DNA of 41,904 nt. It comes from Solimonas sp. SE-A11. GTDB lineage: Bacteria > Pseudomonadota > Gammaproteobacteria > Nevskiales > Nevskiaceae. Positions 12,677 to 34,397 of the stretch are shown here, in pieces. The stretch lies in assembly GCF_030345715.1 (NCBI RefSeq), contig NZ_JAUASX010000030.1, positions 1-41,904 of the forward strand, read 5' to 3'. The notes under the pieces are model-generated. The model was not told the origin of the DNA. It did no database searches and saw nothing but the letters and a program-made list of their open reading frames with translations. Positions within the stretch are counted from its first letter, which is position 1, and each line of letters starts with the position of its first letter. Made by a program: the position numbers and the translations under genes.

Positions 12677-13219
12677 ATGCAGAATGTCTTCGACGGCGAG
12701 GAGCTGTTGGTCCTTGCGCGCATGGATCTTGAAAAAGGCGTTGTGGAGCAGGGGCTTGCCAAGCTGAAGCAGGCGGCTGCCCTGGGCGATTGCCCGCCGG
12801 CGGTGCGGCTGGAACTGGCCCGCGTTTATGCGCAGCTGGGCCTGCGCGGCAAGGCCCGCGCGCAGTTCGAGGCCTATCTCCAGACGCAGCCAGGCGACAT
12901 CGACGCCAGCTTCCAGCTCGGCATGACGCGCTTTGAAGATGGCGACACCGATGCGGCGCTGGCCATATGGGAGCGGGTGCTGCAGCAGTCTGCGCAGTAT
13001 CCGCCGGCCTTGTACTTCCGCGCCGTTGCTGCGGCGCGGCGCGGGCAGGGGAGTGAGGCCAGGGCCCAGCTGCGCAGTGCCCTTGATGTCATCCCCGCGG
13101 ACAATCTCTACTTCACCCGCTCGCGCGATCTGCTGGCCTCTATGAACGCCGCTGAACGCTCCGGCAAGGCGGAGCCGGTTGCGCTGAATGCCGCTGACGC
13201 CTACCGCACCCAGCACTAG
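12677..13219 (+). CDS. TPR protein, first gene of the flagellar-type block
   Basis: A 180-residue soluble protein made of about four tetratricopeptide-type helical pairs (for example AVRLELARVYAQLGLRGKAR and ASFQLGMTRFEDGDTDAALA). There is no signal peptide or membrane segment. The start at ATG 12677 is backed by ggggaag upstream. The next TPR gene starts nine bases after its stop. It resembles the minus-strand TPR protein at 33819-34397 in repeat order and motifs (FQLG, GD-xx-A-xx-W, then a final SAL segment), so the block is bracketed by related TPR proteins. TPR proteins often act as type III chaperones or assembly scaffolds; such a role here is inferred only from linkage. Confidence 0.75.
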   Translation: MQNVFDGEELLVLARMDLEKGVVEQGLAKLKQAAALGDCPPAVRLELARVYAQLGLRGKARAQFEAYLQTQPGDIDASFQLGMTRFEDGDTDAALAIWERVLQQSAQYPPALYFRAVAAARRGQGSEARAQLRSALDVIPADNLYFTRSRDLLASMNAAERSGKAEPVALNAADAYRTQH

Positions 13220-13228
13220 GAGCGGAGT

Positions 13229-14422
13229 GTGACACTGACTGGCAATGCCGACGCAGCCACACGGCTGCAGCGCCTGCGCGGGTTCCTGCAGGCGGACCCG
13301 GGCAACCTGCGCCTGGTGCAGGATGCCGCCGCCGTGGCGCGCGATCTGCGTGACCTGGACGCTGAGCGGGAGATTCTAGGCTCGGGCCTTGCCCATCATC
13401 CGGAAGACGCCGCTCTAGGGCATACGCTGGGCGTCAACGCGCTGGAGCGCCGCGATTTCCGCAACGCGGCCATCTGCTTCGATACCCTGCTGGCCGCGGG
13501 ACATGAGCATCCGGCCATCCGCTATAACCTGGCTTTCGCGCAGTTCTACGCTGGCTTTCCCCAGGCTGCCATCGACGCCCTCGCGGATTTTTCCGACGCC
13601 GACTGGGCGCAGTTGCCGCAGGCGCACAAATTGTTTGCGCAGGCCGCGCACTACGTGGACGACGAAGGCTTGCAGCGGACCATCTTGCACCTGCAAAAAT
13701 ACCTGGCAGTGAAGGACGACGACGCCGAGGCCCATGGCCTGCTGGCGCTGGCCCTGTTCGATGACAACCTGGCCGAGGAAGCAGAGCAGCGTATCCAGGC
13801 GACGCTGCAGCGTCGCCCGGACGAGCCGCATGCGCTGTTGGCACAGGGCGGCCTCGCGCTGGAGCGGCAGGATCACCGGCAGGCGGCGGAGTCCTTCGAT
13901 GCGGTGCTGCGGCAGCAGCCGCAGAACGGCCGCGCCTGGTCGGGGCGCGCCTTTGCCCACATGCTGAACCTGGATTTTACGCCGGCGCAAGAGGCCTTTC
14001 TCAAGGCCGTGGAGCACATGCCGGACCACATCGGCACCTGGCATGGCCTCGCCTGGTTGCGGATCATGAACAATGACCTGGCCGGCGCGCAGCAGAGCCT
14101 GGACAAGGCCATGGCGCTGGATCGCAATTTCGGTGACACCCACGGCAGCATGGCGGTGATCGCCGCCTTGCAGGGCCGCACCGACGAGGCCAAGCTCATG
14201 GCGCGACGAGGCCGCGGCTTGAATCCGCAGAGTTTCTCCGCCCGCTACGCCGAGAGCCTGCTGCTGGCTCGCTTTGGCGAGCGCGAACAGGCCAGCGAAG
14301 TTGTGAGGAAGCTGCTGGCAAGCTCCGTCGTCGAAGGGGGTCTCAGCGCGGGTGAGCTGACCGCGGCCCTGTTGGAACGCCGCCAGCGTGACGCAGCCAA
14401 GGCCGAGGGGCCGCACTCATGA
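13229..14422 (+). CDS. Large TPR protein upstream of fliQ
   Basis: A 397-residue protein built almost entirely of tetratricopeptide repeats, roughly nine to ten units, such as AHGLLALALFDDNLAEEAEQ, NGRAWSGRAFAHMLNLDF and HGSMAVIAALQGRTDEAK. No secretion signal or membrane span is seen. Translation starts at GTG 13229, preceded by aggag six bases upstream. Its stop overlaps the fliQ start (ATGA at 14419), so it is translationally coupled to the export gate. TPR proteins of this size upstream of gate genes are not part of the standard flagellar set. A cytoplasmic scaffold or substrate-handling role is plausible but inferred. Confidence 0.8.
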   Translation: MTLTGNADAATRLQRLRGFLQADPGNLRLVQDAAAVARDLRDLDAEREILGSGLAHHPEDAALGHTLGVNALERRDFRNAAICFDTLLAAGHEHPAIRYNLAFAQFYAGFPQAAIDALADFSDADWAQLPQAHKLFAQAAHYVDDEGLQRTILHLQKYLAVKDDDAEAHGLLALALFDDNLAEEAEQRIQATLQRRPDEPHALLAQGGLALERQDHRQAAESFDAVLRQQPQNGRAWSGRAFAHMLNLDFTPAQEAFLKAVEHMPDHIGTWHGLAWLRIMNNDLAGAQQSLDKAMALDRNFGDTHGSMAVIAALQGRTDEAKLMARRGRGLNPQSFSARYAESLLLARFGEREQASEVVRKLLASSVVEGGLSAGELTAALLERRQRDAAKAEGPHS

Positions 14423-14688
14423 CGGCCGACCTCGCCCTCAAGCTCTCGCAAGAGATGCTGTGGACGGCAATGCTGGTGGCCGGGCCGGTGGTCGGCATCA
14501 GCATGATCGTGGGCCTGATCGTCAGCATCTTCCAGGTGGTGACTCAGATTCAGGAGATGACGCTGACCTTCATCCCCAAGATGCTGGCCATCTTCTTCGT
14601 GCTGGTCGCTTTGGGGCCCTGGATGCTGGCCACCCTGGTGCAGTTCGGCGTCACGCTGTTCACCAACATACCCGTCTACGTTCGGTGA
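14419..14688 (+). CDS. fliQ: FliQ, flagellar export gate subunit
   Basis: This 89-residue protein has the usual FliQ length and two hydrophobic hairpin segments (about residues 15-40 and 48-75) joined by the polar VVTQIQEMTLTFIPK turn typical of the family. FliQ packs with FliP and FliR into the helical export gate in the inner membrane, inside the MS-ring. Its ATG overlaps the stop of the upstream TPR gene, and fliR begins seven bases after it. The fliQ-fliR order is standard, but fliP and fliO are separated and lie about 17 kb downstream at the end of the block. Confidence 0.95.
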   Translation: MTADLALKLSQEMLWTAMLVAGPVVGISMIVGLIVSIFQVVTQIQEMTLTFIPKMLAIFFVLVALGPWMLATLVQFGVTLFTNIPVYVR

Positions 14689-14695
14689 GCACCAC

Positions 14696-15466
14696 ATGAA
14701 TCTGGTGGTGCAAGCCGAGTGGATTGTCATGTTATTGATGGCGGCTGCCCGCATTGCCGGCGCCTTGGCCTTTGCCCCTGTGCTGGGCTTCGCCACGCTG
14801 CCGACGAACATCCGGCTATTCCTGATCTTGGCGCTGGCGCTGATGACGGCTGGGCTGGCGGCCGGCGGCGCGCTGCCCGCAGCGCCGCAGACACTGATGG
14901 GCCTCATCCTGGCCATGGGGCGGGAGGTCTTGCTAGGGGCTTTGCTGGGCTTCGGCATCCTCGCCGCCTTCGGGGCGCTCGCGGTGGGCGGCCGCCTGCT
15001 GGACTACCAGATGGGCTTCGGCATCGCCACCCTGTTCGACCCCTCCACCCGCGGTCACGGCTCGTTGATGGGGGCGGTGTTCACCATGCTCGGCGCCACC
15101 ATCTTCCTGGCGCTGGATGCGCACCACACACTGATTCGCGGCTTCGCGTTCTCCTTCCAGTCCGTGCCAGCGGGATCGCCGTTGGTATTGCCGATTCAGT
15201 TGGTGATGGGGCAGTTCGGTTTGATGTTCGTTTACGGATTCATCCTGGTGGCGCCGGTGGTCTTTGCGCTGATCCTGATGGACCTGGTTATTGGCTTCGC
15301 CGCGCGTGTCATGCCGCAAGTCAACGCCTATTTCGTGGCGCTGCCGGCCAAGGCTTTCGTCGGCCTGCTGGTTACCGCGATCTCCCTTCGCTTCTCTGGC
15401 GGCATCGTGCAGAGCCTGTTCGAAAAAATCTTTCTCTACTGGCAGCAGGTCCTCGTCGCGAGATAA
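14696..15466 (+). CDS. fliR: FliR, flagellar export gate subunit
   Basis: A 256-residue integral membrane protein with about six hydrophobic segments and the FliR core (LGFATLPTNIRLFLILALAL, then LLDYQMGFGIATLFDP). Length matches the family. FliR contributes one subunit to the FliPQR gate and bridges it to FlhB. ATG 14696 follows fliQ closely and its stop is two bases before the flhB start. Nothing points to degradation. Confidence 0.95.
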   Translation: MNLVVQAEWIVMLLMAAARIAGALAFAPVLGFATLPTNIRLFLILALALMTAGLAAGGALPAAPQTLMGLILAMGREVLLGALLGFGILAAFGALAVGGRLLDYQMGFGIATLFDPSTRGHGSLMGAVFTMLGATIFLALDAHHTLIRGFAFSFQSVPAGSPLVLPIQLVMGQFGLMFVYGFILVAPVVFALILMDLVIGFAARVMPQVNAYFVALPAKAFVGLLVTAISLRFSGGIVQSLFEKIFLYWQQVLVAR

Positions 15467-15468
15467 TC

Positions 15469-16545
15469 ATGGCCGACCAGGGCGCAGACCAGGACAAGTC
15501 AGAGACCGCAACCCCCTTCAAGCTGGAGGAGGCACGCAAGCGCGGGCAGGTGTTCAAGAGCGTGGAACTGAACTCACTGGCCGTGCTGTCGGTGGCTCTG
15601 GCAGCGACCATCGCCTTCTCCGAATCGGCCATGCGCAAGACCTTCACCTTAACGCAGGGGCTGCTGCGCGAGGCAGGCCGCACTGAACTCACGATTCCTA
15701 TGGTGACGGAACTGATGAGCAGCTTGTCCACGAGCGTCCTGTTCCTGCTGCTGCCCTTCCTCCTGCTGGTGATGGCGGCCGGCGTGGTCGCCAACTTCCT
15801 GCAGACCGGGCCGGTGTTCTCCTTCACGCCGCTCAAGCCGGACTTCACCCGTCTGAACCCCGCCACGGGGCTGAAGCGCCTGTTCTCCATGCGATCGGTC
15901 TACGAGGGCTTCAAGTCCATGCTCAAGCTGGGCCTGCTGGCGGCCGTGCTGTTCTGGATGATCTGGAGTTTGCTGCCCGATCTGCTGATGCTCACGCGCC
16001 AGCCGCTGGGTGCCTACCCGGATCTGCTGATCGAACATGCCAGCTTCGTCTTATTCGTGCTGCTGCTCGGCTTGCTCGGCCTGGCCTTGATGGACCTGAG
16101 CTTCACCCGCTGGGAGTTCATGAAGAAGATGCGCATGAGCCGACGGGAGCTCAAGGACGAGGTCAAGCGCCGTGAGGGTGATCCCCAAATCCGATCCAAG
16201 CGCCGCGAAATCCAGCGTGCAATGCGCAAGAAGGCAGCCTCAGCTGGCCGCATCAAGGATGCTGACGTCTTGATCACCAACCCCACGCATGTTGCCGTGG
16301 CGCTGCAGTACAGCCGTGAGGACATGCCGGCGCCGAAGCTGATCAGCAAGGGCGCGGGCGATGCCGCCCTGAAACTGCGCCGGGCGGCGTTTCGTCACGG
16401 CATCCCCGTGGTGGAGAATCCGCCCCTGGCCCGTTCGCTCTATCGCAGCACCGATCTGGAGCAGTACATCCCGGAGGATAGCTATCGCGACGTAGCCCTG
16501 GTGCTGCGCAGTGTGCGCAAGCCCTCGCAGGAGCGTCCGTCTTGA
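15469..16545 (+). CDS. flhB: FlhB, export specificity switch
   Basis: The 358-residue protein starts at ATG 15469; the same frame is open further upstream through fliR, but that part does not look like protein. It has the FlhB N-terminus (ETATPFKLEEARKRGQV), four membrane segments in the first ~210 residues and a basic linker (RRELKDEVKRREGDPQIRSK). The autocleavage motif N-P-T-H lies at about residues 271-274. Cleavage there switches export from rod/hook to later substrates in ordinary flagella. The motif is intact, so the switch is probably retained although no filament genes are present here. The stop overlaps the TTG start of flhA. Confidence 0.95.
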   Translation: MADQGADQDKSETATPFKLEEARKRGQVFKSVELNSLAVLSVALAATIAFSESAMRKTFTLTQGLLREAGRTELTIPMVTELMSSLSTSVLFLLLPFLLLVMAAGVVANFLQTGPVFSFTPLKPDFTRLNPATGLKRLFSMRSVYEGFKSMLKLGLLAAVLFWMIWSLLPDLLMLTRQPLGAYPDLLIEHASFVLFVLLLGLLGLALMDLSFTRWEFMKKMRMSRRELKDEVKRREGDPQIRSKRREIQRAMRKKAASAGRIKDADVLITNPTHVAVALQYSREDMPAPKLISKGAGDAALKLRRAAFRHGIPVVENPPLARSLYRSTDLEQYIPEDSYRDVALVLRSVRKPSQERPS

Positions 16546-18596
16546 GCGCCGCCAGCCTGTCGCGCCAGATGCTTGGAACCCGCTCCGAGCTGTTCGTGAT
16601 CGCCGCGGTGGTTGGTATCCTGGTGGTGCTTTTCTCGCCGATACCGCCGGGCCTGCTGGACTTCCTGCTGATCAGCAACTTCTGTTTGGCGGCGCTGATC
16701 CTGCTACTGACGTTCTATACCGACAAGCCGCTGACCTTCTCGACCTTCCCGTCGATCCTGCTAATCGCGACGCTGCTGCGTCTGTCGCTCAACGTCGCCG
16801 CAACGCGGTTGATCCTCACGGACGCCTACGCTGGCCGCGTCATCGAGGCGATCGGCTCGCACGTGGTAGCGGGCAACTACGTAATCGGGCTGGTGGTGTT
16901 CCTGATCTTGATCGTGGTGCAGTTTGTGGTCGTGACCAACGGCGCGCAACGCGTCGCCGAGGTCGCCGCGCGCTTCACGCTGGATGCCATGCCCGGCAAG
17001 CAGATGAGCATCGACGCCGATCTCAACATGGGCCTGATCACCGAGGTCGAGGCCCGCGAGCGCCGCAAGGAAATCGAGCGCGAGGCCAACTTCTACGGCG
17101 CGATGGACGGCGCCAGCAAGTTCGTCAAGGGCGATGCCATCGCCGGCATTATCATCATCTTGATCAACATCATCGGTGGCCTGGCCATCGGTTTGGTGCA
17201 AAAGGGGATGGAGTGGTCGGAGGCGCTGGCCACCTACACCCTCCTGACGGTGGGCGACGGTATCGTCACTCAAATTCCGGCGCTGGTCATTGCCACCGCT
17301 ACCGGCATCCTGGTTACCCGCGCCGCCACCGATGCGGACCTGACCAAGGAGATGCTGTCGCAGGTTACTCGCTACCCCAAGTCCCTCGTGATCCTCGGGG
17401 GAGCGCTGTTCGCCACACTATTCCTTCCGGGCATGCCGGTGCTGCCGGTGCTGGCCATCCTGGTGCTGGTGGTGGCATCTGCCGTGGTCGCCTACCGGGC
17501 CAGCGCGCGCGAGCAAGTGGCCGAGCCGTCCGCCGAAGATGCCACAGCGACGGGAGAGGAGGGGGTGTCCTATGCCGCGCTGGCGGTAGAGCCCCTGGAG
17601 ATGGAGTTGGGCGCCGCGTTGCGGCCGCTGGTTGGGCAGGATGACAGCCTGTTCATGAAGCGCGTCAAGGCCTTCCGACGGCAGCATGCGACGGAGAGTG
17701 GCCTCATCATCCCCAGCCTGCGCCTGCGCGAGGAAGCGCGCCGTTCACCCCAGAGCTACGCGATCCGCTTCTTCGGCGCCACGGTCGCAGAGGGCGAAAT
17801 GCGGCCTGACTCGGTGCTGGCGATCAATCCTGGCAACGCTGGCACGGCCATCAAGGGCGAGAAGACGCGTGACCCCACCTTTGGCCTGCCGGCATTGTGG
17901 ATCGCTCCCGGCGATGCCGCTGCCGCCCGTGCCGCTGGATTCACCGTGGTGGAGCCGCTCACGGTGCTGGTCACGCATTTCTCCGAGGTGATACGTAATC
18001 AGGGCCACCACTTGGTCACACGCCAGGAGACCGAGCGCTTGGTAGGTACGGTGCGTGAGGCTCAGCCCAGCCTGGTGGAGGAGCTGATCCCCGGCGTGCT
18101 GTCGCTGAGCGACGTGCAGAAGGTGCTCAAGGCACTGCTCAAGGAACGCGTCCCTATCCGCAACATGGACTTCGTCCTGGAGGCCCTGCTTGAGGCCGGC
18201 CGTCAGGTCAAAGACCACGACTCCCTGACCGAACGGGTACGCGAGAAGCTGGGCCTGGCGATCACCCAGCGCTTTGCCAGCAAGGACGGCTCTCTGCACG
18301 TGCTGACGCTGGAAGCCGCCACCGACAAGGTCCTGCGCGACGCCATCCGCCAGAGTGAGGGCGGAACTACCTCGATGGACCCGGGCTGGATGGATCGCCT
18401 GGTGCGGGCGTTGTCGCGCCACGTCGAGGAGATGCTGGCGCAGAACATCGTGCCGGTGCTGATCTGCGCCCCCTCTGTGCGGCGCTTCCTGCGCCGTGCG
18501 ACCGAGGCCTCCCTGCCGCATCTCAACGTCATTTCAACTTCGGAACTGAACAGCACCTTGTCTGTTCGCGTTCACGCCACCGCCGGCGTCAACTAG
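16542..18596 (+). CDS. flhA: FlhA, export gate ring protein
   Basis: A 684-residue protein of normal FlhA length, with about eight membrane segments in the first ~330 residues and a large cytoplasmic domain that forms the nonameric ring binding chaperone-substrate complexes. The FHIPEP-family signature RLSLNVAATRLIL is present near residue 77. The start is TTG 16542, supported by aggag eight bases upstream and a four-base overlap with flhB; the next ATG would lose eight residues. The gene looks fully functional, which argues that the export apparatus is under selection. Confidence 0.95.
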   Translation: MSAASLSRQMLGTRSELFVIAAVVGILVVLFSPIPPGLLDFLLISNFCLAALILLLTFYTDKPLTFSTFPSILLIATLLRLSLNVAATRLILTDAYAGRVIEAIGSHVVAGNYVIGLVVFLILIVVQFVVVTNGAQRVAEVAARFTLDAMPGKQMSIDADLNMGLITEVEARERRKEIEREANFYGAMDGASKFVKGDAIAGIIIILINIIGGLAIGLVQKGMEWSEALATYTLLTVGDGIVTQIPALVIATATGILVTRAATDADLTKEMLSQVTRYPKSLVILGGALFATLFLPGMPVLPVLAILVLVVASAVVAYRASAREQVAEPSAEDATATGEEGVSYAALAVEPLEMELGAALRPLVGQDDSLFMKRVKAFRRQHATESGLIIPSLRLREEARRSPQSYAIRFFGATVAEGEMRPDSVLAINPGNAGTAIKGEKTRDPTFGLPALWIAPGDAAAARAAGFTVVEPLTVLVTHFSEVIRNQGHHLVTRQETERLVGTVREAQPSLVEELIPGVLSLSDVQKVLKALLKERVPIRNMDFVLEALLEAGRQVKDHDSLTERVREKLGLAITQRFASKDGSLHVLTLEAATDKVLRDAIRQSEGGTTSMDPGWMDRLVRALSRHVEEMLAQNIVPVLICAPSVRRFLRRATEASLPHLNVISTSELNSTLSVRVHATAGVN

Positions 18597-18606: not shown

Positions 18607-19320
18607 ATGACCGATATCGCCGCACTTGTCACCGCGACCCTGGCCAACGACCAGGAGCGGCTGCGCATCATCGCGCAGAACCTCGCCAATGCCTCCACGC
18701 CGGCCTATCGGGCAGAAATACCGGTTGGTACCGGCGCCTTCGCCTCGCTGATCGATGGATCGCAGCCGGGCTCCGCGGTGGAAGCGCATCGCAGCCAGCG
18801 TCAGGGCGCGATCCAGCAGACCGGGCGCAAGCTGGATCTGGCGATCGAGGGCGAGGGCTGGTTCCGCGTACAGGCGCCGGAAGGTGTGCGCTACACCCGA
18901 CGAGGCGACTTCGAAATGGACCCCTCTGGTCGCGTGCAAACCGCCCAGGGCCTGCCGTTGCTTGCCGGCAGTGCGCCGCTGAGCCTGCCCAACATGGATT
19001 TTGAGATCGATGCACAGGGCGCGGTTCGCGTCGGCAGCGGCGTGCTGGACCGCATCCTGTTGGCGCAGGCGGATGAGGATACGCAACTCGTCTACGTGGG
19101 TGAAGGGCTTTATGCCGCGGCCGGGGAGCTTCCGATAGCAGCTCCCGAGGCGGGCACCGCCTCCATCCGCCAAGGCGCAATCGAGCGCGGCAATGTGGAT
19201 CCGCTGCAGGAAATGGTGGCGATGATGCAGACCGTGCGCCATTTCGGCAGTAGCGCCCAGGCGCTGCGCGCGTACGACCAGATGCTGGATGCCGCGATCA
19301 ACAGAAGCGGCGATTTCTAA
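18607..19320 (+). CDS. flgF: FlgF, proximal rod protein
   Basis: A 237-residue axial protein with the N-terminal rod signature (RLRIIAQNLANASTPAYR) and the matching C-terminal helix (MVAMMQTVRHFGSSAQALRA). FlgF is a rod subunit exported through the gate and assembled across the periplasm. The start has a clear ribosome site (aggggaag). It is followed by flgG in the usual order. Confidence 0.92.
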   Translation: MTDIAALVTATLANDQERLRIIAQNLANASTPAYRAEIPVGTGAFASLIDGSQPGSAVEAHRSQRQGAIQQTGRKLDLAIEGEGWFRVQAPEGVRYTRRGDFEMDPSGRVQTAQGLPLLAGSAPLSLPNMDFEIDAQGAVRVGSGVLDRILLAQADEDTQLVYVGEGLYAAAGELPIAAPEAGTASIRQGAIERGNVDPLQEMVAMMQTVRHFGSSAQALRAYDQMLDAAINRSGDF

Positions 19321-19344: not shown

Positions 19345-20124
19345 ATGCTCGACGCGATCTACGCCAGTATCTCCGGTCTGCAGGCCCATCAGCTGCGGCT
19401 CGATGCCTTGTCCAATAACCTGGCCAACGTCAACACGCCAGGCTTCAAGAAGGCGCGTGTCAACTTTGCCGATCTCATGTACCGCCCGGTGGAAGCCGCG
19501 GCGGCAGATTCCGAGGCGGCGGACAAGCCGCGCCAGGTTGGCCTGGGGACCGCCGTGGCCAGCACCGAGGCGATCTTCAGCCAAGGTGACCTGCGCCAGA
19601 CCCAGCGCCCGCTGGATATGGCCATCTTCGGGCAGGGCTTCATGGAGGTACAGCTGGCCGATGGCAGCTTCGCCTATACGCGCCTCGGCTCGCTGCGCCT
19701 GAACGAGACCGGGGAACTAGTCACCACCGATGGCCTGCGGGTTTCCGGCGACGTACGAGTGCCCGCCGAAGCCACGCAACTGGTCATCGACCAGGACGGC
19801 CGTATCCTGGCCACCTTGCCGGGCGAGAAGGACCCCGAGGAGATCGGTCAGCTTGAGCTCGTCGGCTTCGTCAATGCCACCGGCCTCAAGTCCATGGGTA
19901 GCGGCCTCTATGCTGCCACCTCCGAATCCGGCGATCCCTTCTACGGCAAGCCCGGTGAAGTCGGTCTGGGCAAGCTGCGCCAAGGTTTCCTGGAAATGTC
20001 GAACGTCGATTTCATCGAAGAGCTCTCCGAGCTGGTCGTGGCGCAGCGCGCCTATCAGCTCAATGCCCGTGCCCTTCAGGCGGCGGACGAAGTGCTGGCC
20101 GAGATCAACAGCCTGCGCCGCTGA
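19345..20124 (+). CDS. flgG: FlgG, distal rod protein
   Basis: This 259-residue protein is of canonical FlgG length. The N-terminal helix reads SGLQAHQLRLDALSNNLANV followed by NTPGFKK, and the C-terminal helix has NVDFIEELSELVVAQRAYQL. FlgG forms the distal rod passing through the P- and L-rings. A strong ribosome site (ggggaag) precedes the ATG. Full length and intact termini suggest a complete rod can be built. Confidence 0.95.
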   Translation: MLDAIYASISGLQAHQLRLDALSNNLANVNTPGFKKARVNFADLMYRPVEAAAADSEAADKPRQVGLGTAVASTEAIFSQGDLRQTQRPLDMAIFGQGFMEVQLADGSFAYTRLGSLRLNETGELVTTDGLRVSGDVRVPAEATQLVIDQDGRILATLPGEKDPEEIGQLELVGFVNATGLKSMGSGLYAATSESGDPFYGKPGEVGLGKLRQGFLEMSNVDFIEELSELVVAQRAYQLNARALQAADEVLAEINSLRR

Positions 20125-21415: not shown

Positions 21416-21417
21416 TC

Positions 21418-27671: not shown

Positions 27672-28099
27672 GGCAGCGGCAGGCCCTGCGGGTATTGCAC
27701 AGGCTCAATGAGCTGCAGCTGGTGGAACGCCGTGTCGAGGCTGCGCAGAAGCGCTTGGCGGTTACTGCCAGCACGGCGCTGTGCGAACGTCAGGACGGCT
27801 ACCTGGACTATGTCGGACGGCGCCTGACTGCCGACGGCCCTCTGCAGGCTGAGGACTTCCGGGCTGAATCTGACCGTTTCCAGGTCGCGCTGGATAACCG
27901 TGCGCTGCTCGGCAGGCGCCTGGAGGCCGATGAGGCTGCTTTGGATGTGTCCGTTCGCGAGTGCTTTGGCTTGGAGCGTCGCAACAAGACACTGCAACAG
28001 GTCATGAGCACCCGTCGCCAGACTGAGCAGCGCCTCGAAGATCAGCAGTGGCTACGAGAGATGGACGAGCTCTGGTCGCAGCGGAAGGGGCAGGCATGA
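27668..28099 (+). CDS. fliJ: FliJ, central stalk of the export ATPase
   Basis: A 143-residue, highly charged, almost wholly helical protein (RVLHRLNELQLVERRVEAAQ ... RQTEQRLEDQQWLREMDELW) consistent with the two-helix coiled coil of FliJ/SctO. It starts within the fliI stop and its own stop overlaps the next ATG. FliJ links the FliI hexamer to FlhA. Confidence 0.85.
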   Translation: MRQRQALRVLHRLNELQLVERRVEAAQKRLAVTASTALCERQDGYLDYVGRRLTADGPLQAEDFRAESDRFQVALDNRALLGRRLEADEAALDVSVRECFGLERRNKTLQQVMSTRRQTEQRLEDQQWLREMDELWSQRKGQA

Positions 28100-28695
28100 A
28101 CTACGGACTGGACGATGTGCTGGTCGCCTGGAGTGGTGTGGCGCGAGCAGCCAACTCCGCCTCGGGTCTTCGCACGAGCATGGAGCGCTCGGCCTTCGCC
28201 GACCTATTCGATTCCGATGTGCACTTCGCGGCTCTGGCGGGTAAGGCAGCCGATGTGCCTCAGGCTGCGGACGTCGCTGACCCGGTAGCCGCGGAACCAC
28301 CGGTGACAGGGGCGTTGGCCGCACCGCGCTCCATTGCTGAGGAACCAGCTCCAACCCTGAGCATGCGGTCATCACTGCCGATAGCAACATCATCGGGCGG
28401 CGCTGCTGGTGGCGGCCCCCTCGTTGCACCTGGCAGTTTGGTGCGACTGATGAATGTGCCGGAAGGCAGCGCCGCGGGCCGGGCGCCTGCGCGCGCCACG
28501 CTGGAGCCGGCACTTTGTCAGTGGAGCCGCACGGCATTAACAGCTTGTTTGCGTGATGGCGAACTCAACCTGACGGTCCGTGATGGGGCGCTGGGTGCTG
28601 ATCGCGAAACGGTAGACGTCCTGAGGCAAGCGCTTCGGGAAATGGGAATCGGGCTGACGAAGCTCAAAATCAACGGCATCAATGCTGAGGCCTGA
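28096..28695 (+). CDS. FliK-like (hook-length/substrate switch) candidate
   Basis: The 199-residue protein starts at ATG 28096, overlapping fliJ. The N-terminal two thirds are low-complexity (Ala/Pro/Gly/Ser-rich), and the end is a small ordered segment (LTACLRDGELNLTVRDGALG then VDVLRQALREMGIGLTKLKI). A disordered export region with a small C-terminal domain, placed between fliJ and flgD, is what FliK/SctP rulers look like. The C-terminus is not a clear match to the FliK Hook-length domain, and the protein is much shorter than typical FliK (about 400). Assigned by position and shape only. Confidence 0.55.
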   Translation: MNYGLDDVLVAWSGVARAANSASGLRTSMERSAFADLFDSDVHFAALAGKAADVPQAADVADPVAAEPPVTGALAAPRSIAEEPAPTLSMRSSLPIATSSGGAAGGGPLVAPGSLVRLMNVPEGSAAGRAPARATLEPALCQWSRTALTACLRDGELNLTVRDGALGADRETVDVLRQALREMGIGLTKLKINGINAEA

Positions 28696-28729
28696 GTCAA
28701 GGCGCGGCGATTAGTAGCGGAGGTGATTC

Positions 28730-29140
28730 ATGGCGGTCGATGCGATTGGCGGTTCGGTAGGAACAGGGTTGGGCGAACTGACACGCTCCGGCGTTTCGCA
28801 GGAAGATTTCATCCGGCTGTTCCTGACCCAGCTCAATTTCCAGGATCCGCTTGAGCCAGTGGACAACCGCGAGTTCCTGGCGCAGCTCGCCCAGTTCAGC
28901 TCGGTAGAGCAGTTGCGCACTCTGGGCGAGAACATCGACGCATTACTCGGTGTGCAGGCCTCCGGCCAGGCTCTGGGCCTGCTCGGCCGAACCGTGGAAG
29001 TCGCGACCGAATCCGGCTCCGCGATCGGGCAGGTCACGACATTGAATTACCGCTCGGGAAAACCGCTGCTGACGATCACCCAGACCAACGGCAACATCCT
29101 GCCGGACGTCAGCCCGTCCCAAGTCCTGATCGTTCGCTAA
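28730..29140 (+). CDS. flgD: FlgD, hook cap, short form
   Basis: A 136-residue protein with the conserved FlgD N-terminal domain (SQEDFIRLFLTQLNFQDPLE then PVDNREFLAQLAQFSSVEQL). Usual FlgD is about 220 residues with Tudor-like and Fn3-like C-terminal domains; here only a short strand-rich part remains (TVEVATESGS ... SPSQVLIVR). A strong ribosome site (ggaggtgat) precedes the ATG. It would cap the growing hook during FlgE assembly; a minimal form may still do this. Confidence 0.9.
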   Translation: MAVDAIGGSVGTGLGELTRSGVSQEDFIRLFLTQLNFQDPLEPVDNREFLAQLAQFSSVEQLRTLGENIDALLGVQASGQALGLLGRTVEVATESGSAIGQVTTLNYRSGKPLLTITQTNGNILPDVSPSQVLIVR

Positions 29141-29153
29141 GAGGAGTCTAGCC

Positions 29154-30389
29154 ATGACCGCATTGACCAGCGCCTATACGAGCCTTACCGGCCTGATCGC
29201 CTTTTCGCGCGCGCTCGACATCATCGGCGACAACGTGGCCAACCTGAATACGGTCGGCTTCAAGGCCACCGATTTGCTGTTCGAAAGCCTGCCGCCGCCG
29301 GAAGGGTCACAAAATGACAGCCGGCCGGCAGCGGAATCCGAGATGCCGGGTGGTGGTGCGGTCGTGAGCGGGACCCGGCGGCGCTTCACTCCTGGTGAGT
29401 TACGCGAAACCGGCACCGCCACACACGTCGCCATAAACGGTGACGGCTTTTTTGTACTGAACGACGGTGATCGCTACCTGTACACCCGCAATGGTCAGTT
29501 CCAGCTGGACGAGGACGGCAATCTCCAGGACGCCTCCGGCACGCGCAATGTGCAGGCTCTGGTCAACGGCGTGCTTCAGAACGTCGTCATCGACAGTGAC
29601 AAGACCAACCCGGCATCGGCTACGAAGACGGTGGAGTTCAGCGGTGTGCTGTCGGTGGGGCAGGCTTCGACCGGCACCGGTACAGACGCGGCGCAGCGGT
29701 TCACGCTGGATGCGGTCAAGGTGTTTGACGCCTCTGGCACGCAGCAGACGCTGAAAATGGAGTTCACCCGCGCGGCGAGCAATGGCATCAATGCCTGGAC
29801 CGTATCGGTGAAGGACACCGCCGGCCTGGAACTCCTGGGCACGAACAAGGAGATCCGTTTTGATGGATCGGGGAATCCCACCACGGGGTTCTCCTCCCTC
29901 ACTTTCAAGGTGAAGACCAGCACGGGGGTGGAATCCGAGGTGACCCTGGACTTCAAGAACGCGAACTCCTTCTCCGCTGGGACAACCTCGTCGCTGACGG
30001 TTTCCAAGAGTGACGGCTACGCCCTGGGCCGCCTGTCCAGCTTCAGCTTCGACGAGAAGGGCAAGGTGACCTTGCAGTATTCGAACGGCCAGAAGGAGGA
30101 CGGACAGCGCCTGGCGCTGGCGACCTTCTCCGATCCCCAGGTACTTGAGACCAGCGACGGCGGCCTGTTCATTGCGCCGGAGGGCACGGAGTTCCGCCTG
30201 GGTATGGCCGATGAGGACGGGTTTGGTTCGATTCGGCCGCGCAGCCTGGAACTCGCAAACGTGGAACTGGCCCGGGAATTCGCAGACATCCTGATTCTGC
30301 AGCGCGGCTTCCAGGCCAGCTCACAGGTTCTTAACGTCACCAGCAAAATGATCGAGGACATCTATAACAGCGTTTCGGGACGCGGCTGA
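29154..30389 (+). CDS. flgE: FlgE, hook protein
   Basis: A 411-residue hook protein of normal length: N-terminal helix SLTGLIAFSRALDIIGDNVA followed by NLNTVGFKATD, a DGFFVLNDGDRYLYTRNGQF segment, and the C-terminal axial helix (EFADILILQRGFQASSQVLN). A clear aggag site lies ahead of the ATG at 29154. FlgE builds the hook outside the outer membrane. It is the most distal axial protein in this window; no hook-filament junction or flagellin gene follows. Confidence 0.95.
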   Translation: MTALTSAYTSLTGLIAFSRALDIIGDNVANLNTVGFKATDLLFESLPPPEGSQNDSRPAAESEMPGGGAVVSGTRRRFTPGELRETGTATHVAINGDGFFVLNDGDRYLYTRNGQFQLDEDGNLQDASGTRNVQALVNGVLQNVVIDSDKTNPASATKTVEFSGVLSVGQASTGTGTDAAQRFTLDAVKVFDASGTQQTLKMEFTRAASNGINAWTVSVKDTAGLELLGTNKEIRFDGSGNPTTGFSSLTFKVKTSTGVESEVTLDFKNANSFSAGTTSSLTVSKSDGYALGRLSSFSFDEKGKVTLQYSNGQKEDGQRLALATFSDPQVLETSDGGLFIAPEGTEFRLGMADEDGFGSIRPRSLELANVELAREFADILILQRGFQASSQVLNVTSKMIEDIYNSVSGRG

Positions 30390-31129
30390 TGAAGCCCTTT
30401 CGATTGCTGAAGGCTTCCGAACTGCGCCAGCTCGAATCCAGGGCTGAGCAGGCCGGTGCGAAATGGTCTGACCGCTGGGCCCTGCGCGCTGACACGCCGC
30501 TGACTTGGTCGGCGGTGGACGCGGGGGAATCGAAGGCCGCCTCCGGCCGGCACCATGCCATCGACTGCGGCGAAGGACTTCAGGCGGCTGTAAATCTTCC
30601 AGCCGAGGCCGATGGAATCCTGGCGGGCATGGCCCTAGGCCAGGGAGGGCAGGGGTCCGACCATCTGGTGGCGCGGGAATTATCCCTGCTGTGCCTGGCC
30701 GATCATCTGGCCGAACTTACCGGCCTCGGCGAGTGGCGGCCGTCGACCGGCGGGGTGGCGGCGCCGGTGCGCGGCAGCGGTACGGCATTGCTCAGCTGTC
30801 GGATGGGGGATCGCTCCCTCGGTGCCCTGCTACTGCCCCTGACTTTGTTGCAGCGCATGGGTGTAGTGGCTGCTACGTCATCGCTGGCACCAACCGCCAC
30901 TCTCGGGCCTCGCGCCGCGGCGGTACTGCCGGCGCGGCTGCAGCTGTCGGCAACGCTTAACGACACGTCACTGACGATTAAGGACTTGCGCGAGATCGCG
31001 GTCGGCGATGTTCTGATGCTCGATCACTCGCTCGAAGCACCGTTGACGCTGCGCTTGGGCGGCAAACCCGCGGGCTCCGCTTATCCCGGAATCCGAGGCG
31101 GTCGCCTCAGCGTCGAACTCAGCAAGTAG
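30389..31129 (+). CDS. FliM/SctQ-like C-ring protein with one SpoA domain
   Basis: A 246-residue protein in the fliM position, starting at the flgE stop. The last ~60 residues (LQLSATLNDTSLTIKDLREI, AVGDVLMLDHS, APLTLRLGGKPAGSAYPG) form a SpoA/FliN-type domain. The N-terminal part has none of the FliM hallmarks: no EIDALL-like CheY-binding peptide and no GGxG motif. Length and layout are closer to the SctQ proteins of injectisomes than to FliM (about 330 residues). It probably forms the sorting platform with FliN, without directional switching. Confidence 0.75.
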   Translation: MKPFRLLKASELRQLESRAEQAGAKWSDRWALRADTPLTWSAVDAGESKAASGRHHAIDCGEGLQAAVNLPAEADGILAGMALGQGGQGSDHLVARELSLLCLADHLAELTGLGEWRPSTGGVAAPVRGSGTALLSCRMGDRSLGALLLPLTLLQRMGVVAATSSLAPTATLGPRAAAVLPARLQLSATLNDTSLTIKDLREIAVGDVLMLDHSLEAPLTLRLGGKPAGSAYPGIRGGRLSVELSK

Positions 31130-31156
31130 CTCACTTTATTACAGGAAGCAGGACAC

Positions 31157-31489
31157 ATGACTCAGGTTAATGAACAGCCCGAAATCCAGCCGCTCAAGTT
31201 GGGGGAACTGGGGGCAGGTGCGGGTCGCGGTCAGCCCTGGTTGGAAAGGCAGCTCGACTTGGTGCGCGACATCAAGGTTACTGTTCGCGCCAGCATGGGC
31301 AGCGCTGAATTGACCATCGCTTCGCTGTTCGCCCTGCGCGAAGGGGATGTGGTGACTCTGGATCGCGAAACGGATGCTCCGGTGGACATCACGCTGGAAG
31401 GTAATCTGATTGCCCGTGGGCAACTGGTGGCGGCCGGTGATCGCTTCGGCCTGCGGATTACCGAAATTCTCGACCCGGGCAAGTTCTAA
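31157..31489 (+). CDS. fliN: FliN, C-ring/sorting platform protein
   Basis: A 110-residue protein whose C-terminal ~75 residues are a SpoA domain (DIKVTVRASMGSAELTIASL, EGDVVTLDRETDAPVDITLE, GDRFGLRITEIL). FliN rings bind FliH and recruit the ATPase complex. A good ribosome site (aggaagcagga) precedes ATG 31157. Confidence 0.92.
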   Translation: MTQVNEQPEIQPLKLGELGAGAGRGQPWLERQLDLVRDIKVTVRASMGSAELTIASLFALREGDVVTLDRETDAPVDITLEGNLIARGQLVAAGDRFGLRITEILDPGKF

Positions 31490-31513
31490 GGCTGGGTCAA
31501 GGCGAGTTCCTCC

Positions 31514-31873
31514 GTGCTACCAAACATGACAAGACTGCTGCCCGCTGCGATCCTGGCGAGCATTGGCGACGTGGCGTTCGCAGCCCCAGGGGCAGCCGAG
31601 GCTCCTTCGGTGGCGGGATGGCAGGTTCTGACCATCTTCGGCTACCTGGGCTTGCTTGGCATGCTGGCGTTTTTTGGCGTGCGCTGGTGGAAGACTCGCC
31701 AGGTTAGTACCTCTGGAAGCTTTGTCCGGACGCGGCAGATCAATGTCGTGGAGACTCGCCGCGTATCACCGTCGACCTCGATCGTGCTGGCCGACATCAA
31801 GGGGCATTCCTACGTCATTGTCTGCTCGGGTACAGCGGTTGCGATTCATCCGATCGCGGAGCCTTCCGCATGA
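31514..31873 (+). CDS. fliO: FliO, gate assembly factor
   Basis: A 119-residue protein with an N-terminal hydrophobic/signal-like stretch, one membrane span at about 37-57 (WQVLTIFGYLGLLGMLAFFG) and a cytoplasmic part (TRQINVVETRRVSPSTSIVL) as in FliO. FliO helps FliP assemble. GTG 31514 has aaggcgag eight bases before it; ATG 31526 is the alternative and lacks a ribosome site. The gene overlaps fliP by four bases. Confidence 0.85.
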   Translation: MLPNMTRLLPAAILASIGDVAFAAPGAAEAPSVAGWQVLTIFGYLGLLGMLAFFGVRWWKTRQVSTSGSFVRTRQINVVETRRVSPSTSIVLADIKGHSYVIVCSGTAVAIHPIAEPSA

Positions 31874-32652
31874 GCCATCGCAGGTCAGATACCCAATGGT
31901 TACGGGTTGCGCTGCAGTTATCTGTAATGCTGGCGCTGCTGGTGCTGCCTGGCTTGTCCACCGCCGCGGACATCACGTTCCCCGGCGGGTCGGTCGACTT
32001 CACGACTCAGTCGGGAAAGGCCCTGAGCACGCCGCTGCGATTGGTGTTGATGCTGACGGTCCTAAGCCTGGTGCCGTCGTTGCTGATCGTGCTGACCTCC
32101 TTTACCCGCATCATCGTCGTCCTGGCGATGCTGCGGCACGCGCTAGGGATGCCGGAGACGCCGCCCAATACCGTGCTGATCAGCCTGGCTCTGTTTCTCA
32201 CGATATTTACCATGCTGCCGGTATGGGAGCAGGTGGACCAGCAGGCGCTGACGCCCTACATGAATGGCGCGATCGCAGAGAAGGAGTTGTTGGAGACGGG
32301 ATCTAAGCCGTTGCGGGAGTTCATGCTGGCGCAAACGCGCGAGAAGGACTTGGCGCTGATGATCGAGCTGTCTGGTTCCAAGGCGCCGGCGCAGGTAACC
32401 GAAATCAAGTTGTTGCAGTTGATTCCAGCATTCATGATCAGTGAGTTGCGCAAGGCCTTCGAGATTGGGTTCATTATTTTTCTGCCCTTTGTGGTGATCG
32501 ACATCATCGTGGCCAGCGTGCTGATGTCCCTGGGCATGATCATGGTTCCGCCACTGGCGTTCTCGTTGCCCTTGAAGATTCTGCTTTTCGTGCTGATCGA
32601 TGGATGGGGATTGCTGTCGGCCGCCCTGATCCGGAGCTTCGTCCCATCCTGA
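31870..32652 (+). CDS. fliP: FliP, core export gate subunit
   Basis: A 260-residue protein with a cleavable signal peptide (LSVMLALLVLPGLSTAAD) and four membrane spans. Family motifs are present: LVPSLLIVLTSFTRIIVVLA, then LRHALGMPETPPN, FMISELRKAFEIGFIIFLPF and VASVLMSLGMIMVPP. Five FliP subunits form the gate with FliQ and FliR. It overlaps fliO and ends 15 bases before the sigma factor gene. Confidence 0.96.
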   Translation: MSHRRSDTQWLRVALQLSVMLALLVLPGLSTAADITFPGGSVDFTTQSGKALSTPLRLVLMLTVLSLVPSLLIVLTSFTRIIVVLAMLRHALGMPETPPNTVLISLALFLTIFTMLPVWEQVDQQALTPYMNGAIAEKELLETGSKPLREFMLAQTREKDLALMIELSGSKAPAQVTEIKLLQLIPAFMISELRKAFEIGFIIFLPFVVIDIIVASVLMSLGMIMVPPLAFSLPLKILLFVLIDGWGLLSAALIRSFVPS

Positions 32653-32667
32653 GGTTGCGGCAGCTCC

Positions 32668-33420
32668 ATGCAAGACCATCAGGCACCCGCTGAATTGACA
32701 CAATCGGACGAGGCCCCACTCTGGGAGCGCCTGAGAAGTGTCGATGTCGAAGAGTCCCGGCAAGCGCGAGAAGATCTCGTGCTTCGCCATCTTTGGCTTG
32801 CCAAGGCCGTTGCGGCGCGTGTCCTGCAGGAGCGATCATTCACCGCAGATTTAGACCTCCGCGATCTGGTTCAATTGGCGACGGTAGGACTTATCGAGTC
32901 GGTCGATCGGTACGATCCAAGTATGGGAGTTCCGTTTTCGGCCTACGCCAGAAAGCGTGTGCAGGGGGCCGTTCTAAACGGCTTGGAACAGAGCTCTGAG
33001 TATCGAGCGCAGAACTCTTGGTTGCACCGGATGGGCAAGGAACGCGCGGAATCCATCACCTCGGCAAACTCATCGGAAGGGGACAGCCTTCTCCGCCTGG
33101 CTGAAGTCACCGTGGGATTGGCCATTGGGTTCATGCTGGAAGATAGCGGCATGTATGTGTCGTCGCCAGACCGGATCGACACACCGTACGACGTGAATGA
33201 GCTTGCCGTTCTTCAGGGGCAACTAAGACTAGTTGTGACCGAGCTGCCCGAGTCGCAGAGAAAGGTGGTCGAGTTGCACTACTTCAAGGAACTCAGCTTC
33301 TCCGAAATTGGTGCGGTCCTTCGCCTCACTAAAGCCAGAATCTCACAAATTCACGGTAAAGCCTTGCTTGAAATCCGTCGGCGCCTGAAGCTTGTTGGTC
33401 AGATTGATGAGCGTGGTTGA
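32668..33420 (+). CDS. fliA: Sigma-28 family (FliA-like) sigma factor
   Basis: A 250-residue sigma factor. Region 2 covers about residues 30-110 (DLVQLATVGLIESVDRYDPS then FSAYARKRVQGAVLNGL), and region 4 the last ~50 (LPESQRKVVELHYFKELSFS then TKARISQIHGKALLEIRRRL). The region between is divergent from standard FliA region 3. In flagellated bacteria FliA turns on flagellin, motor and chemotaxis genes, none of which are in this window, so its regulon may be rewired. It is the last plus-strand gene of the block and ends two bases from a convergent gene. No anti-sigma FlgM is seen nearby. Confidence 0.88.
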   Translation: MQDHQAPAELTQSDEAPLWERLRSVDVEESRQAREDLVLRHLWLAKAVAARVLQERSFTADLDLRDLVQLATVGLIESVDRYDPSMGVPFSAYARKRVQGAVLNGLEQSSEYRAQNSWLHRMGKERAESITSANSSEGDSLLRLAEVTVGLAIGFMLEDSGMYVSSPDRIDTPYDVNELAVLQGQLRLVVTELPESQRKVVELHYFKELSFSEIGAVLRLTKARISQIHGKALLEIRRRLKLVGQIDERG

Positions 33421-33421
33421 A

Positions 33422-33799
33422 TCATCTCGAAGCAAGCTTCAGTAGGAGGCGGTCCAGCTCTGTTCTCAGCTCGTTTTCGTCGACGATCACTGCTTCCACC
33501 TTCTCTACAATCTGTGGAAACCGCTGGTCGTTGGCCAATGCAATGCCAAACTCATCCAGCAGCACGACTTCCACAAAGGCCTTGCGACCGCGTCGCCTGC
33601 CATCCTCTCCGTCGAGATGGATTTCTCTTATCGCGGCACGAATGTCGTGTGACAGCTGATCCGAGAAGTCTTTCCCCTCCGCCTTTGAGGGGGGCGACTT
33701 TGCGCTCGAAGGCGAGGCACTACGCTGCTTATCAGTCCGAGCAGAAAGGGCCGCCCGGATTTGAGCCAGAAGGCGTTGCGTTGGGTCGATGCCGCTCAT
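33422..33799 (-). CDS. Unrecognised small protein convergent with the sigma factor
   Basis: A 125-residue soluble protein I do not recognise. The first ~45 residues are Ser/Lys/Pro-rich and likely disordered; the rest looks folded, with FVEVVLLDEFGIALANDQRF and a C-terminal helix ending RTELDRLLLKLASR. No signal peptide or membrane span. Its stop lies one base after the sigma factor stop, so the two genes meet tail to tail with no room for a terminator. It is 19 bases downstream of a TPR gene on the same strand and is likely co-transcribed with it. A role linked to the export system is inferred from location only. Confidence 0.65.
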   Translation of the reverse strand: MSGIDPTQRLLAQIRAALSARTDKQRSASPSSAKSPPSKAEGKDFSDQLSHDIRAAIREIHLDGEDGRRRGRKAFVEVVLLDEFGIALANDQRFPQIVEKVEAVIVDENELRTELDRLLLKLASR

Positions 33800-33818
33800 T
33801 CGCTAGTTGTGGCTGGCG

Positions 33819-34397
33819 CTATGAATCCAGGTCTCCGTAACGACGCAAGAGGCCTGCCCCGGCAGAGCCGCCGGTTTCGGTGGTCGCAGCGGGAGCTGCC
33901 TGCTCATCCGCCAGCTTGCCACGTACGTTGGTCAGTACCTTGGCGATATCATTTTTCAGCGCGGGGTTCGCGTCGGACGCCTCGAGCGCGCTCTCCAGTT
34001 CCTGAATGGCTTGAGCGAACGAGCCGCCCTGAATGTATACCAGAGCACTCTTGAACAGATTCAGTGGGTCTCGGTCACCCAACTTCTCAAGCTCAATCCA
34101 GGTATCAGCGGCGGATGTGGCGTCTCCCCGCGAGTACTGCAAGAGCCCCAGTTGGAATCGAGCGGTATGAAGGCTGCCATCCAAATCGATCGCGCGACGC
34201 ATGCCTTCTTCGGCGCGGTCATACAAGCCCAACTCAGCATGTTCAGCTGCCAGCATAAAGTGGGCGCGGGCATCTTTTGGCTCACGAAAAACCACTTGCT
34301 TTAGCTTGATGATGGCGGCGTCATGCCGGCCTGTTTGGACATCGAGCAGAGCTAAACGAAAGAGTTCTTCGGTGTCGAGCGATTCGAGAGAATCCAT
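33819..34397 (-). CDS. TPR protein, relative of the first TPR gene of the block
   Basis: A 192-residue TPR protein: LFRLALLDVQTGRHDAAIIK, ARAHFMLAAEHAELGLYDRA, ARFQLGLLQYSRGDATSAAD and FAQAIQELESAL, with a low-complexity C-terminus. I start it at ATG 34397 just before DSLESLDTEELF; the frame extends to 34466 but the added residues look non-coding. Repeat order and several motifs match the TPR protein at 12677-13219, so related TPR genes flank the flagellar-type block on both ends. Upstream on the minus strand is an AT-richer stretch that may carry its promoter. Confidence 0.78.
   Translation of the reverse strand: MDSLESLDTEELFRLALLDVQTGRHDAAIIKLKQVVFREPKDARAHFMLAAEHAELGLYDRAEEGMRRAIDLDGSLHTARFQLGLLQYSRGDATSAADTWIELEKLGDRDPLNLFKSALVYIQGGSFAQAIQELESALEASDANPALKNDIAKVLTNVRGKLADEQAAPAATTETGGSAGAGLLRRYGDLDS

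Follow-up and report, generated by a model that had tools for sequence, protein, structure and literature searches.

The window examined here spans contig C24 of Solimonas sp. SE-A11 from end to end (41,904 bp); the host genome (G000) measures 4.94 Mb in 41 contigs and is rated 100% complete. It holds a block of 29 genes, running from TPR1 (12677) to TPR3 (34406), which encodes a flagellar-type type III export apparatus with rod, rings and hook. The block stands beside the 3′ part of a giant YD/Rhs-repeat gene (1..11070, plus strand) that runs off the left edge of the contig and is a candidate cargo. From sequence comparison, the block is interpreted as a flagellum-derived, non-rotating second type III machine that would export giant Rhs polymorphic toxins, with a probability of about two in three. 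The elements of this reading that were computed are the gene content, the missing motor domain, the clade, the conservation, the linkage, the shared leader and the shared upstream motif.

Gene Content of the Block

The proteins of the window were scanned against the hidden Markov models (HMMs) of Pfam and NCBIfam, and "cutoff" refers to each model's own threshold. Genes lie on the plus strand unless stated otherwise. The original prediction, made from the bare sequence, described a contiguous flagellar-type block with gate, rod, P and L rings and hook, and the HMM scans bear this out. The gate is composed of FliQ (14419..14688; TIGR01402, above cutoff), FliR (15466 being its last position and 14696 its first; TIGR01400, E 9e-42, below cutoff), FlhB (15466..16545; TIGR00328, E 6e-102, just below cutoff), in which an NPTH motif is read, FlhA (16542..18596; TIGR01398, 775 bits, above cutoff), which serves as the clade marker, and FliP (31870..32652). 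The last of these does not appear in the HMM scans and is recognised from its sequence, its position and an identity of 88-93% in congeners. The gate had been called complete, FliO included; for FliO (31514..31873) this has to be softened, as the PF04347 match is weak (E 0.0014, below the Pfam cutoff) and is accompanied by position. Similarly, of the predicted FliHIJ set, FliH (25593..26348; PF02108, E 7e-13) and the FliI ATPase (26352..27671; TIGR01026, above cutoff) are confirmed by HMM, while the FliJ-like gene (27668..28099) is assigned from position and conservation in the congeners G051 and G052, with no family match. The same applies to a FliK-like short ruler (28090..28695), which has no supporting family match.

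The structural genes comprise FlgF (18607..19320; HMM scan), FlgG (19345..20124; TIGR02488, above cutoff), FlgA (20127..20834; TIGR03170, above cutoff), FlgH of the L ring (20831..21415; HMM scan), FlgI of the P ring (21412..22557; NF003676, above cutoff), FlgB (22576..22953; TIGR01396, E 4e-15, just below cutoff), FlgC (22950..23390; TIGR01395, above cutoff), FliE (23390..23698; TIGR00205, above cutoff) and FliF (23702..25114; TIGR00206, above cutoff). They are followed further downstream by FlgD (28730..29140; HMM scan) and FlgE (29154..30389; TIGR03506, E 5e-73), the latter assigned as FlgE from its length and position. The predicted sigma-28 gene is also present, as a divergent FliA/WhiG-family sigma factor (32668..33420; TIGR02479, E 4.5e-32, below cutoff) that has 29% identity with the copy on contig C40 of the same genome.

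Several genes go beyond the original prediction. These are a short FliG of 161 aa without the motor domain (25111..25596; FliG_N only, E 0.048), a short FliM of 246 aa that consists of the C-terminal SpoA domain only (30389..31129; PF01052, E 6e-14, with fliM_switch matching just residues 178-245), FliN (31157..31489; PF01052, E 4e-21), three TPR genes and a conserved orphan. TPR1 (12677..13219; Pfam), 83-86% identical in congeners, is a possible export chaperone, and TPR2 (13229..14422; profile matches) is an accessory TPR protein. The orphan of 125 aa (33422..33799) and TPR3 (33819..34406), a possible LcrH/SycD-like chaperone, are both on the minus strand. The orphan has no Pfam or NCBIfam match and is possibly a regulator or chaperone. 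TPR1 and TPR3 give sub-cutoff matches to LcrH/SycD and SctY in NCBIfam, among other TPR families, and against PDB sequences they retrieve TPR proteins in general and nothing more specific. A chaperone role for the TPR proteins is presumed.

The reading frames of the block are intact and its coding space is taken up by the assigned genes. All 29 genes occur in the same arrangement in G051 and G052, and the ratio of nonsynonymous to synonymous substitution rates (dN/dS), computable in 54 of 58 gene comparisons, ranges from 0.035 (FliP) to 0.47 (short FliG). Because the arrangement is kept in two congeners at such ratios, it is confirmed that the block reflects neither chance nor decay. The Rhs gene is the sole flanking gene of the window to match the compared regions of these congeners (26-31% identity in the listed pieces); the other seven have no match there.

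A Second Machine without a Motor

The absence of a filament, a stator and a full rotor from the block had been predicted, and this stands: flagellin, FliD, FlgK, FlgL, FlgJ, MotA and MotB are not seen among its open reading frames (ORFs), and FliG and FliM are shortened as described. The reading of MotA and MotB applies to the block, the rest of the genome not having been searched for MotAB, FliD or chemotaxis genes. The reasoning from missing genes requires correction. Two Flagellin_N matches are located on contig C8 of the same genome and are read as flagellin and FlgL, the FlgL being an interpretation. The same contig carries FlgB to FlgI and, by reading, FlgJ/FlgK-like genes. The sole FliG motor domain of the genome is on contig C40. 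With flagellin and a full FliG encoded elsewhere, their absence from the window alone proves little. However, they accompany a second FlhA, located like the motor domain on C40, that is 40% identical to that of the window. It is this separate flagellar set that makes the window block a second machine.

Nine genomes with a block, together with the congener G050, which has none, were searched for the FliG motor domain (FliG_C, PF01706). No match falls within a block in any of the nine, and in eight the domain is found outside it. Flagellin (Flagellin_N, PF00669) likewise has matches outside the block in eight of the nine. The remaining genome, G347 (97% complete), yields neither FliG_C nor Flagellin_N, and its single FlhA match is the clade copy described below. 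By these three markers, G347 carries the block machine without sign of a flagellum. The absence of a motor domain from nine blocks and of flagellin from G347 supports the earlier proposal that the locus encodes an exporter with a hook-basal body as opposed to a motility organelle.

Structure prediction was also attempted for the two shortened proteins. The short FliG model has a mean predicted local distance difference test (pLDDT) score of 61, with 67-82 over the first ~50 residues. A fold search of the PDB with it returned nothing significant, the top row being a FliF-FliG N-domain complex at E 5.7, and neither result is used as evidence. The short FliM model (pLDDT 36) is unusable.

A Separate FlhA Clade and Its Distribution

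The window FlhA was searched against panels of genomes from the class (369) and the phylum (398); a third panel covers the order (85). The panels overlap, with G000 in all. Beyond the genus, six genomes have an FlhA of 50-57% identity (G303, G347, G382, G724, G752 and G790), and the remaining matches listed for the class and phylum panels do not exceed 45%. Plasmids of Variovorax sp. PDNC026 (54%), Undibacterium sp. YM2 (50%) and Burkholderia ubonensis (49%) also carry related copies; the next plasmid match, in Thermomicrobium roseum (47.3%), was left out of the tree. In a maximum-likelihood tree of 61 rows, the FlhA proteins of 12 blocks, three of them on plasmids, form one clade with 100/100 support. 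Outside this clade are the canonical FlhA proteins that six of these genomes also have (G000, G303, G382, G724, which has two, G752 and G790), and the one SctV-like row of the tree. The FlhA of G378 (45%) groups with canonical FlhA and was dropped from the clade. Seven different family codes are represented in the clade.

The loci share more than FlhA. Iterated profiles were used for the gene counts; their E-values are inflated because the profiles include the sequences they find, and presence alone was used. A core of 18 genes, namely FliPQR, FlhAB, FlgBCDEFGHI, FliE, FliF, FliH, FliI and FliN, is found at 12 of 12 loci, as is the short FliM. The FliA-family sigma gene is present at 11, being missing from the G303 contig. 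TPR2, TPR3 and the 125-aa orphan are each found at 11 loci (the G790 match to TPR2 is a 69-residue fragment) and the short FliG at ten. FliJ is recognised at three loci, and FliK and FliO at four each. The FlgA match of G752 falls outside the block. A weak short-FliG match in G083 was not counted, no window protein having matched that stretch.

Gene order in the core is largely the same across the loci, with exceptions in Undibacterium, where FlgI is split and FliH displaced. The YM2 plasmid FlgI is annotated as two coding sequences (L086 25294-26426), and this copy may be non-functional. Between flhA and flgF of G790 (L080 9372-10837), a FliK-like ORF and a small ORF resembling a free FlhB C-terminal domain are seen by eye. 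Mobile-element-like genes adjoin the block in both Undibacterium and G790.

Residues of FlhA were compared in E. coli numbering, taken from an unannotated E. coli FlhA (L141). D208, which we take to be the aspartate required for export, is kept in all 12 clade members. The same is true of D or E at 456, F or Y at 459 and T at 490, presumably chaperone-docking positions. Judged by these sequences, the export function looks intact and the rotor does not.

Giant Rhs Genes and a Shared Leader

A connection to the neighbouring giant gene was not made in the original prediction. A giant YD/Rhs-type gene or piece of one adjoins all 12 blocks, at a distance of 0.1-5.2 kb in 11 and 17.4 kb in G052. The Undibacterium giant has 12,948 aa and is annotated as tandem-95, that of B. 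ubonensis has 4897 aa, and the frames of Variovorax, G752 and G724 are of 6212, 4781 and 4333 codons, respectively. G051 has two giants in tandem (6632 and 6661 codons). Leader-less 3′ pieces at contig edges are found at three loci: the window, G052 and G790. The first 122 bp of the window giant are identical to the interior of an intact, leader-bearing giant of 5721 codons on contig C37 of the same genome, so a repeat is the probable reason for the contig edge in the window. Next to the giants of G303 (L055, about 2491-6690) and C37 (L129, about 6188-10666) are lipoprotein-like frames of 1399 and 1492 codons, respectively, which have CGGGGGG close to their start.

The window gene shows the features of a Rhs polymorphic toxin: Rhs repeats, a variable toxin-like C-terminal domain and an adjacent immunity-type gene. 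Its Pfam domains are PA14, Rhs repeats and a C-terminal Colicin-DNase/WHH nuclease-like domain, and a LysM-like/KGKK-CGG region is read by eye. Its end is overlapped by a SUKH (SMI1/KNR4) immunity-type gene (11067..11525, plus strand; Pfam E 5e-19). Two giants were scanned whole, those of B. ubonensis and G752. Both contain RHS_repeat, one contains LysM, and neither has a PAAR or other trafficking domain. The G752 giant has a Scabin-like C-terminal end of ADP-ribosyltransferase type. No PAAR-like N-terminal domain was found in five giant N-terminal stretches, one of which has just 59 residues. In four of the five, DUF6531, the domain that opens the shell, starts at residue ~40 (E 3e-5 to 3e-3); the fifth is the 59-residue stretch. 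Only a leader therefore precedes the Rhs shell.

This leader, of ~38 residues with the consensus MVAIVxGNGLGL, is shared by the giants that have an intact 5′ end and is visible at nine of the blocks. In an alignment of seven sequences, 14 of 83 columns are invariant. There is no K or R within the first eight residues in 12 of 13 leaders, and a simple hydropathy analysis shows no signal-peptide-like stretch.

The leader query, A2, was built from the leaders of G303, G724 (two), G752, B. ubonensis, Undibacterium YM2 and Variovorax, and a match is termed strong at E < 1e-20. Leaders were recovered independently in the block genomes G000, G051, G052, G347 and G382. In the class panel, strong matches occur in G000, G303, G347 and G382, which are exactly the four FlhA-clade genomes, and in none of the 365 others (Fisher p 1.3e-9; 1.2e-7 without G303, whose leader is in the query). 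Eight further genomes of this panel have weak matches (E 5e-11 to 5e-4). In the phylum panel, three of four clade genomes (G000, G724 and G752) and none of 394 others have a strong match (p 3.8e-7; 0.005 without G724 and G752, whose leaders are in the query), with one weak match outside the clade, in G716. Panel genomes are not phylogenetically independent, which applies to all of these values. The order panel has leader matches in G000, G051, G052 and G057, and the block-less congener G050 has none.

An Upstream Motif Resembling a Sigma-28 Promoter

The giants also share a sequence upstream of the coding region. Of the 16 leader genes, 13 have TAAAC-N15..17-GGA[TC] upstream, compared with a mean of 0.087 and a maximum of 2 in 1000 shuffled sets, and ten have the exact N16-GGAT form. 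TAAAC-N16-GGAT was read by eye in the same upstream sequences before being counted, so the shuffle comparison is post hoc, and same-genome pairs in these counts (G051, G052, G303, G382 and G724) are not independent. Not used to define the motif were the matches in Eleftheria terrae and Undibacterium KW1, and eight distant leader genes, none of which has it (p 2.2e-4); these eight were checked out of 11 weak leader places outside clade genomes. Across 944 kb scanned, the exact motif occurs 14 times where 3.5 are expected (mean of two shuffles), and 11 of these sites precede leader genes. The giants of Eleftheria terrae and KW1 carry the motif with no block seen nearby, so that both strains are predicted to have a block at some other place.

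The sigma-28 promoter has the form TAAA-N15-GCCGATAA. The geometry of the upstream motif equals that of this promoter, with a different -10 element. The flagellin gene of the host genome has, by reading, TAAA-N15-GCCGTTAA upstream. A scan of the giant upstream regions with the canonical sigma-28 consensus gave mostly chance-level scores. The giant-type motif is also present upstream of TPR3 in G347 (L056-L057 at 24892, relaxed) and G382 (L058-L059 at 24077, exact), hinting that the same sigma factor may read TPR3 in these genomes.

Proposed Mechanism and Alternative Explanations

The proposal is that the block encodes a second type III machine of flagellar type, in which rotation has been lost. 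FlhA, FlhB and FliPQR, together with FliHIJ, would form the export gate within the MS ring (FliF). The shortened FliG and the SpoA-only FliM with FliN would act as a cargo-sorting platform in place of a rotor, and the rod, P and L rings and hook would provide an open channel across the outer membrane. The late, filament-type cargo would be replaced by giant YD/Rhs polymorphic toxins. The leader, located directly before the Rhs shell, may be the export signal, and the giants would presumably traverse the channel unfolded. Their genes could be read by the FliA-family sigma factor of the block from TAAAC-N16-GGATA-type promoters, with the TPR proteins as putative chaperones. The SUKH-type genes would confer immunity, and the targets would be other bacteria. 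The balance tips slightly towards a separate exaptation, in which rotor-less hook-basal bodies on plasmids and chromosomes have their own sigma factor and TPR chaperones, and giant Rhs toxins have replaced flagellin.

A number of observations weigh against this proposal. The main weakness is the presence of distant leaders in six genomes without an FlhA match (G088, G108, G175, G257, G363 and G389, the last only 58% complete). The leader is consequently not proof of type III export; it may be older than the association, or may not be an export signal. Distant leaders (L100-L104, L108 and L109) start frames of 1234-4789 codons in genomes of 1.0-2.3 Mb, and one starts a 155-codon frame near a contig end. 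G057 has a strong leader match and no clade FlhA; its giant is broken, the pieces being separated by a transposase-like ORF. Together with the distant leaders, this genome counts against exclusivity. No block lies within 20 kb on either side of the leader-bearing giants of Eleftheria terrae and KW1, and neither strain has a clade FlhA among the 25 plasmid matches listed. Conversely, G790 has a block and no leader match; it shows just a 627-codon piece at a contig edge, similar in sequence to the window giant (31% over 382 columns, E 5e-27). The giants of G347 and G382 are visible only for their first 381 and ~45 residues before the contig edge, and the window giant lacks its 5′ end, so that its own leader is presumed. 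Some panel genomes have fragmentary FlhA matches that are not assignable to a clade. The motif is absent upstream of three of the 16 leader genes, the host's own C37 copy having one mismatch, and a scan finds it nowhere in the window. Finally, type III export of chains of ~5000-13000 residues is, to our knowledge, unprecedented.

In a different explanation, the block is a non-motility hook-basal-body exporter or appendage with other cargo, and the giant Rhs genes hitchhike beside it within one mobile or variable region, their products exiting by another route. Several Rhs effectors are described as delivered by the type VI secretion system (T6SS) in the portions of the literature consulted, and the distant leader relatives in genomes without FlhA fit such a view, as do the location of three blocks on plasmids and the lack of a match for any of the seven flanking window genes other than the Rhs gene. 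This explanation is nonetheless unlikely given that each of the 12 blocks, which come from at least seven families, has a giant gene or piece linked to it, that leader and clade presence match across 369 genomes, and that the giants share a leader and a sigma-28-like upstream motif, the latter found at none of the eight distant leader genes. A lateral or secondary flagellum that aids motility by borrowing flagellin, junction proteins, FliG or stators from the main set is highly improbable: the genome does encode flagellin and a full FliG on C8 and C40, but the blocks of the nine genomes searched have no FliG motor domain, the window FliM is reduced to SpoA, and G347 keeps a block with no flagellin or FliG motor domain found. 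That the locus is a decaying flagellar cluster, as the short FliG and FliM and the divided FlgI of YM2 might suggest, can hardly be upheld against intact window frames, an arrangement of 29 genes common to three congeners (dN/dS 0.035-0.47 where computable), and the same trimmed core in distant families.

How a flagellar export machine becomes a secretion system is a classic question, which this family makes testable in environmental bacteria by deleting genes. It is conserved and partly plasmid-borne, has no rotor motor domain, keeps the hook channel and has a specific candidate cargo, leader and promoter. If the proposal is true, giant Rhs toxins would have a new route of delivery that is separate from flagella, injectisomes and T6SS, and bacteria a new means of releasing antibacterial weapons. 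The proposal would then also explain how giant Rhs proteins leave the cell when they have no recognised export signal.

Other Features of the Window

Between the immunity gene and TPR1, an ORF resembling a remnant of a transposase associated with repetitive extragenic palindromic sequences is seen by eye (11842-12105). Beyond TPR3, a His-Xaa-Ser cassette (36349-39979, minus strand) encodes HxsA, HxsC, HxsB and HxsD, all above the NCBIfam cutoffs. This is a known kind of system, and nothing in the regions compared from G051 and G052 matches it. A UvrD-like helicase (40118-41692, minus strand) has the NERD+UvrD model C3a187 as its best PADLOC match (E 1.7e-142).

Comparison with Known Systems

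The block has the marks of the flagellar-type type III secretion system (T3SS) lineage: a flagellar-type FlhA, a rod, P and L rings and a hook. With the canonical flagellum, including secondary and lateral flagella, it shares a homologous gate, ATPase, MS ring, rod, P and L rings, hook and FliA-family sigma factor. It differs in having no FliG motor domain and a SpoA-only FliM, in the absence of filament, junction and stator genes among those seen in the block, in its own FlhA clade and in its linkage to giant Rhs genes. Injectisomes also carry out type III export without motility parts and have short C-ring proteins, as the block does, and the block TPR genes weakly resemble LcrH/SycD chaperones. 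However, the window FlhA scores 775 bits with the flagellar model and 581 bits, below cutoff, with hrcV, the model of the injectisome counterpart (SctV). The block FlhA branches with flagellar FlhA, and the block has the rod, P and L rings and hook. Among the block ORFs, where no dedicated search was made, neither a secretin nor a needle gene was noticed.

The T3SS* of Myxococcus (the Myxo group of Abby and Rocha 2012) resembles the proposed machine in that it is flagellum-related, has no motility parts, has LcrH-like chaperones and acts against bacteria; it is required to initiate prey lysis according to excerpts of a myxobacterial review (PMC10433427). In the excerpted text of Abby and Rocha 2012 (PMC3459982), the Myxococcus systems are without rod, hook and L ring, lacking FlgBCDEK, FliEG, FlgH and any outer-membrane part. 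In contrast, the block keeps FlgBCDE, FliE, a short FliG, FlgH and FlgI, as well as FlgFG. The same text states that observations suggest repeated exaptation of flagellar T3SSs, and that the non-flagellar T3SSs (NF-T3SSs) are monophyletic.

Flagellar parts are also kept in non-motile bacteria. An export role has been proposed for the basal bodies of Buchnera (PMC3459982, in part) and reported for FlgD among the remnants in Lysobacter (PMC9927559, in part). Both are read here as a reduced main flagellum, whereas the block forms a separate clade and most of its host genomes also keep a flagellar set. The parallel with Lysobacter drawn in the original prediction is a poor one. All Lysobacter have lost flgB, fliE, fliG and fliM, as stated in the available part of PMC9927559, and the block keeps these genes, with fliG and fliM short, and forms its own clade.

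Among toxin systems, the sections of Zhang et al. 2012 (PMC3482391) that were available name a flagellar-basal-body-like type III system among toxin routes. Table rows there that mention RHS repeats give T3SS as one of the routes for several toxin families, and the question is raised whether the flagellum might deliver a clostridial flagellar-operon RNase. A block-type system is not described in those sections, nor was a report of one found among the open-licence papers listed, judged by their titles and the starts of their abstracts. The giants resemble known Rhs/YD polymorphic toxins in their Rhs repeats, in a C-terminus that is nuclease-like (window) or ADP-ribosyltransferase-like (G752), and in the SUKH gene of the window. 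They differ from these in having no PAAR or trafficking domain in the two scanned whole, in the ~38-residue leader, in a length of about 4300-13000 residues where complete, and in being linked to a flagellar-type machine.

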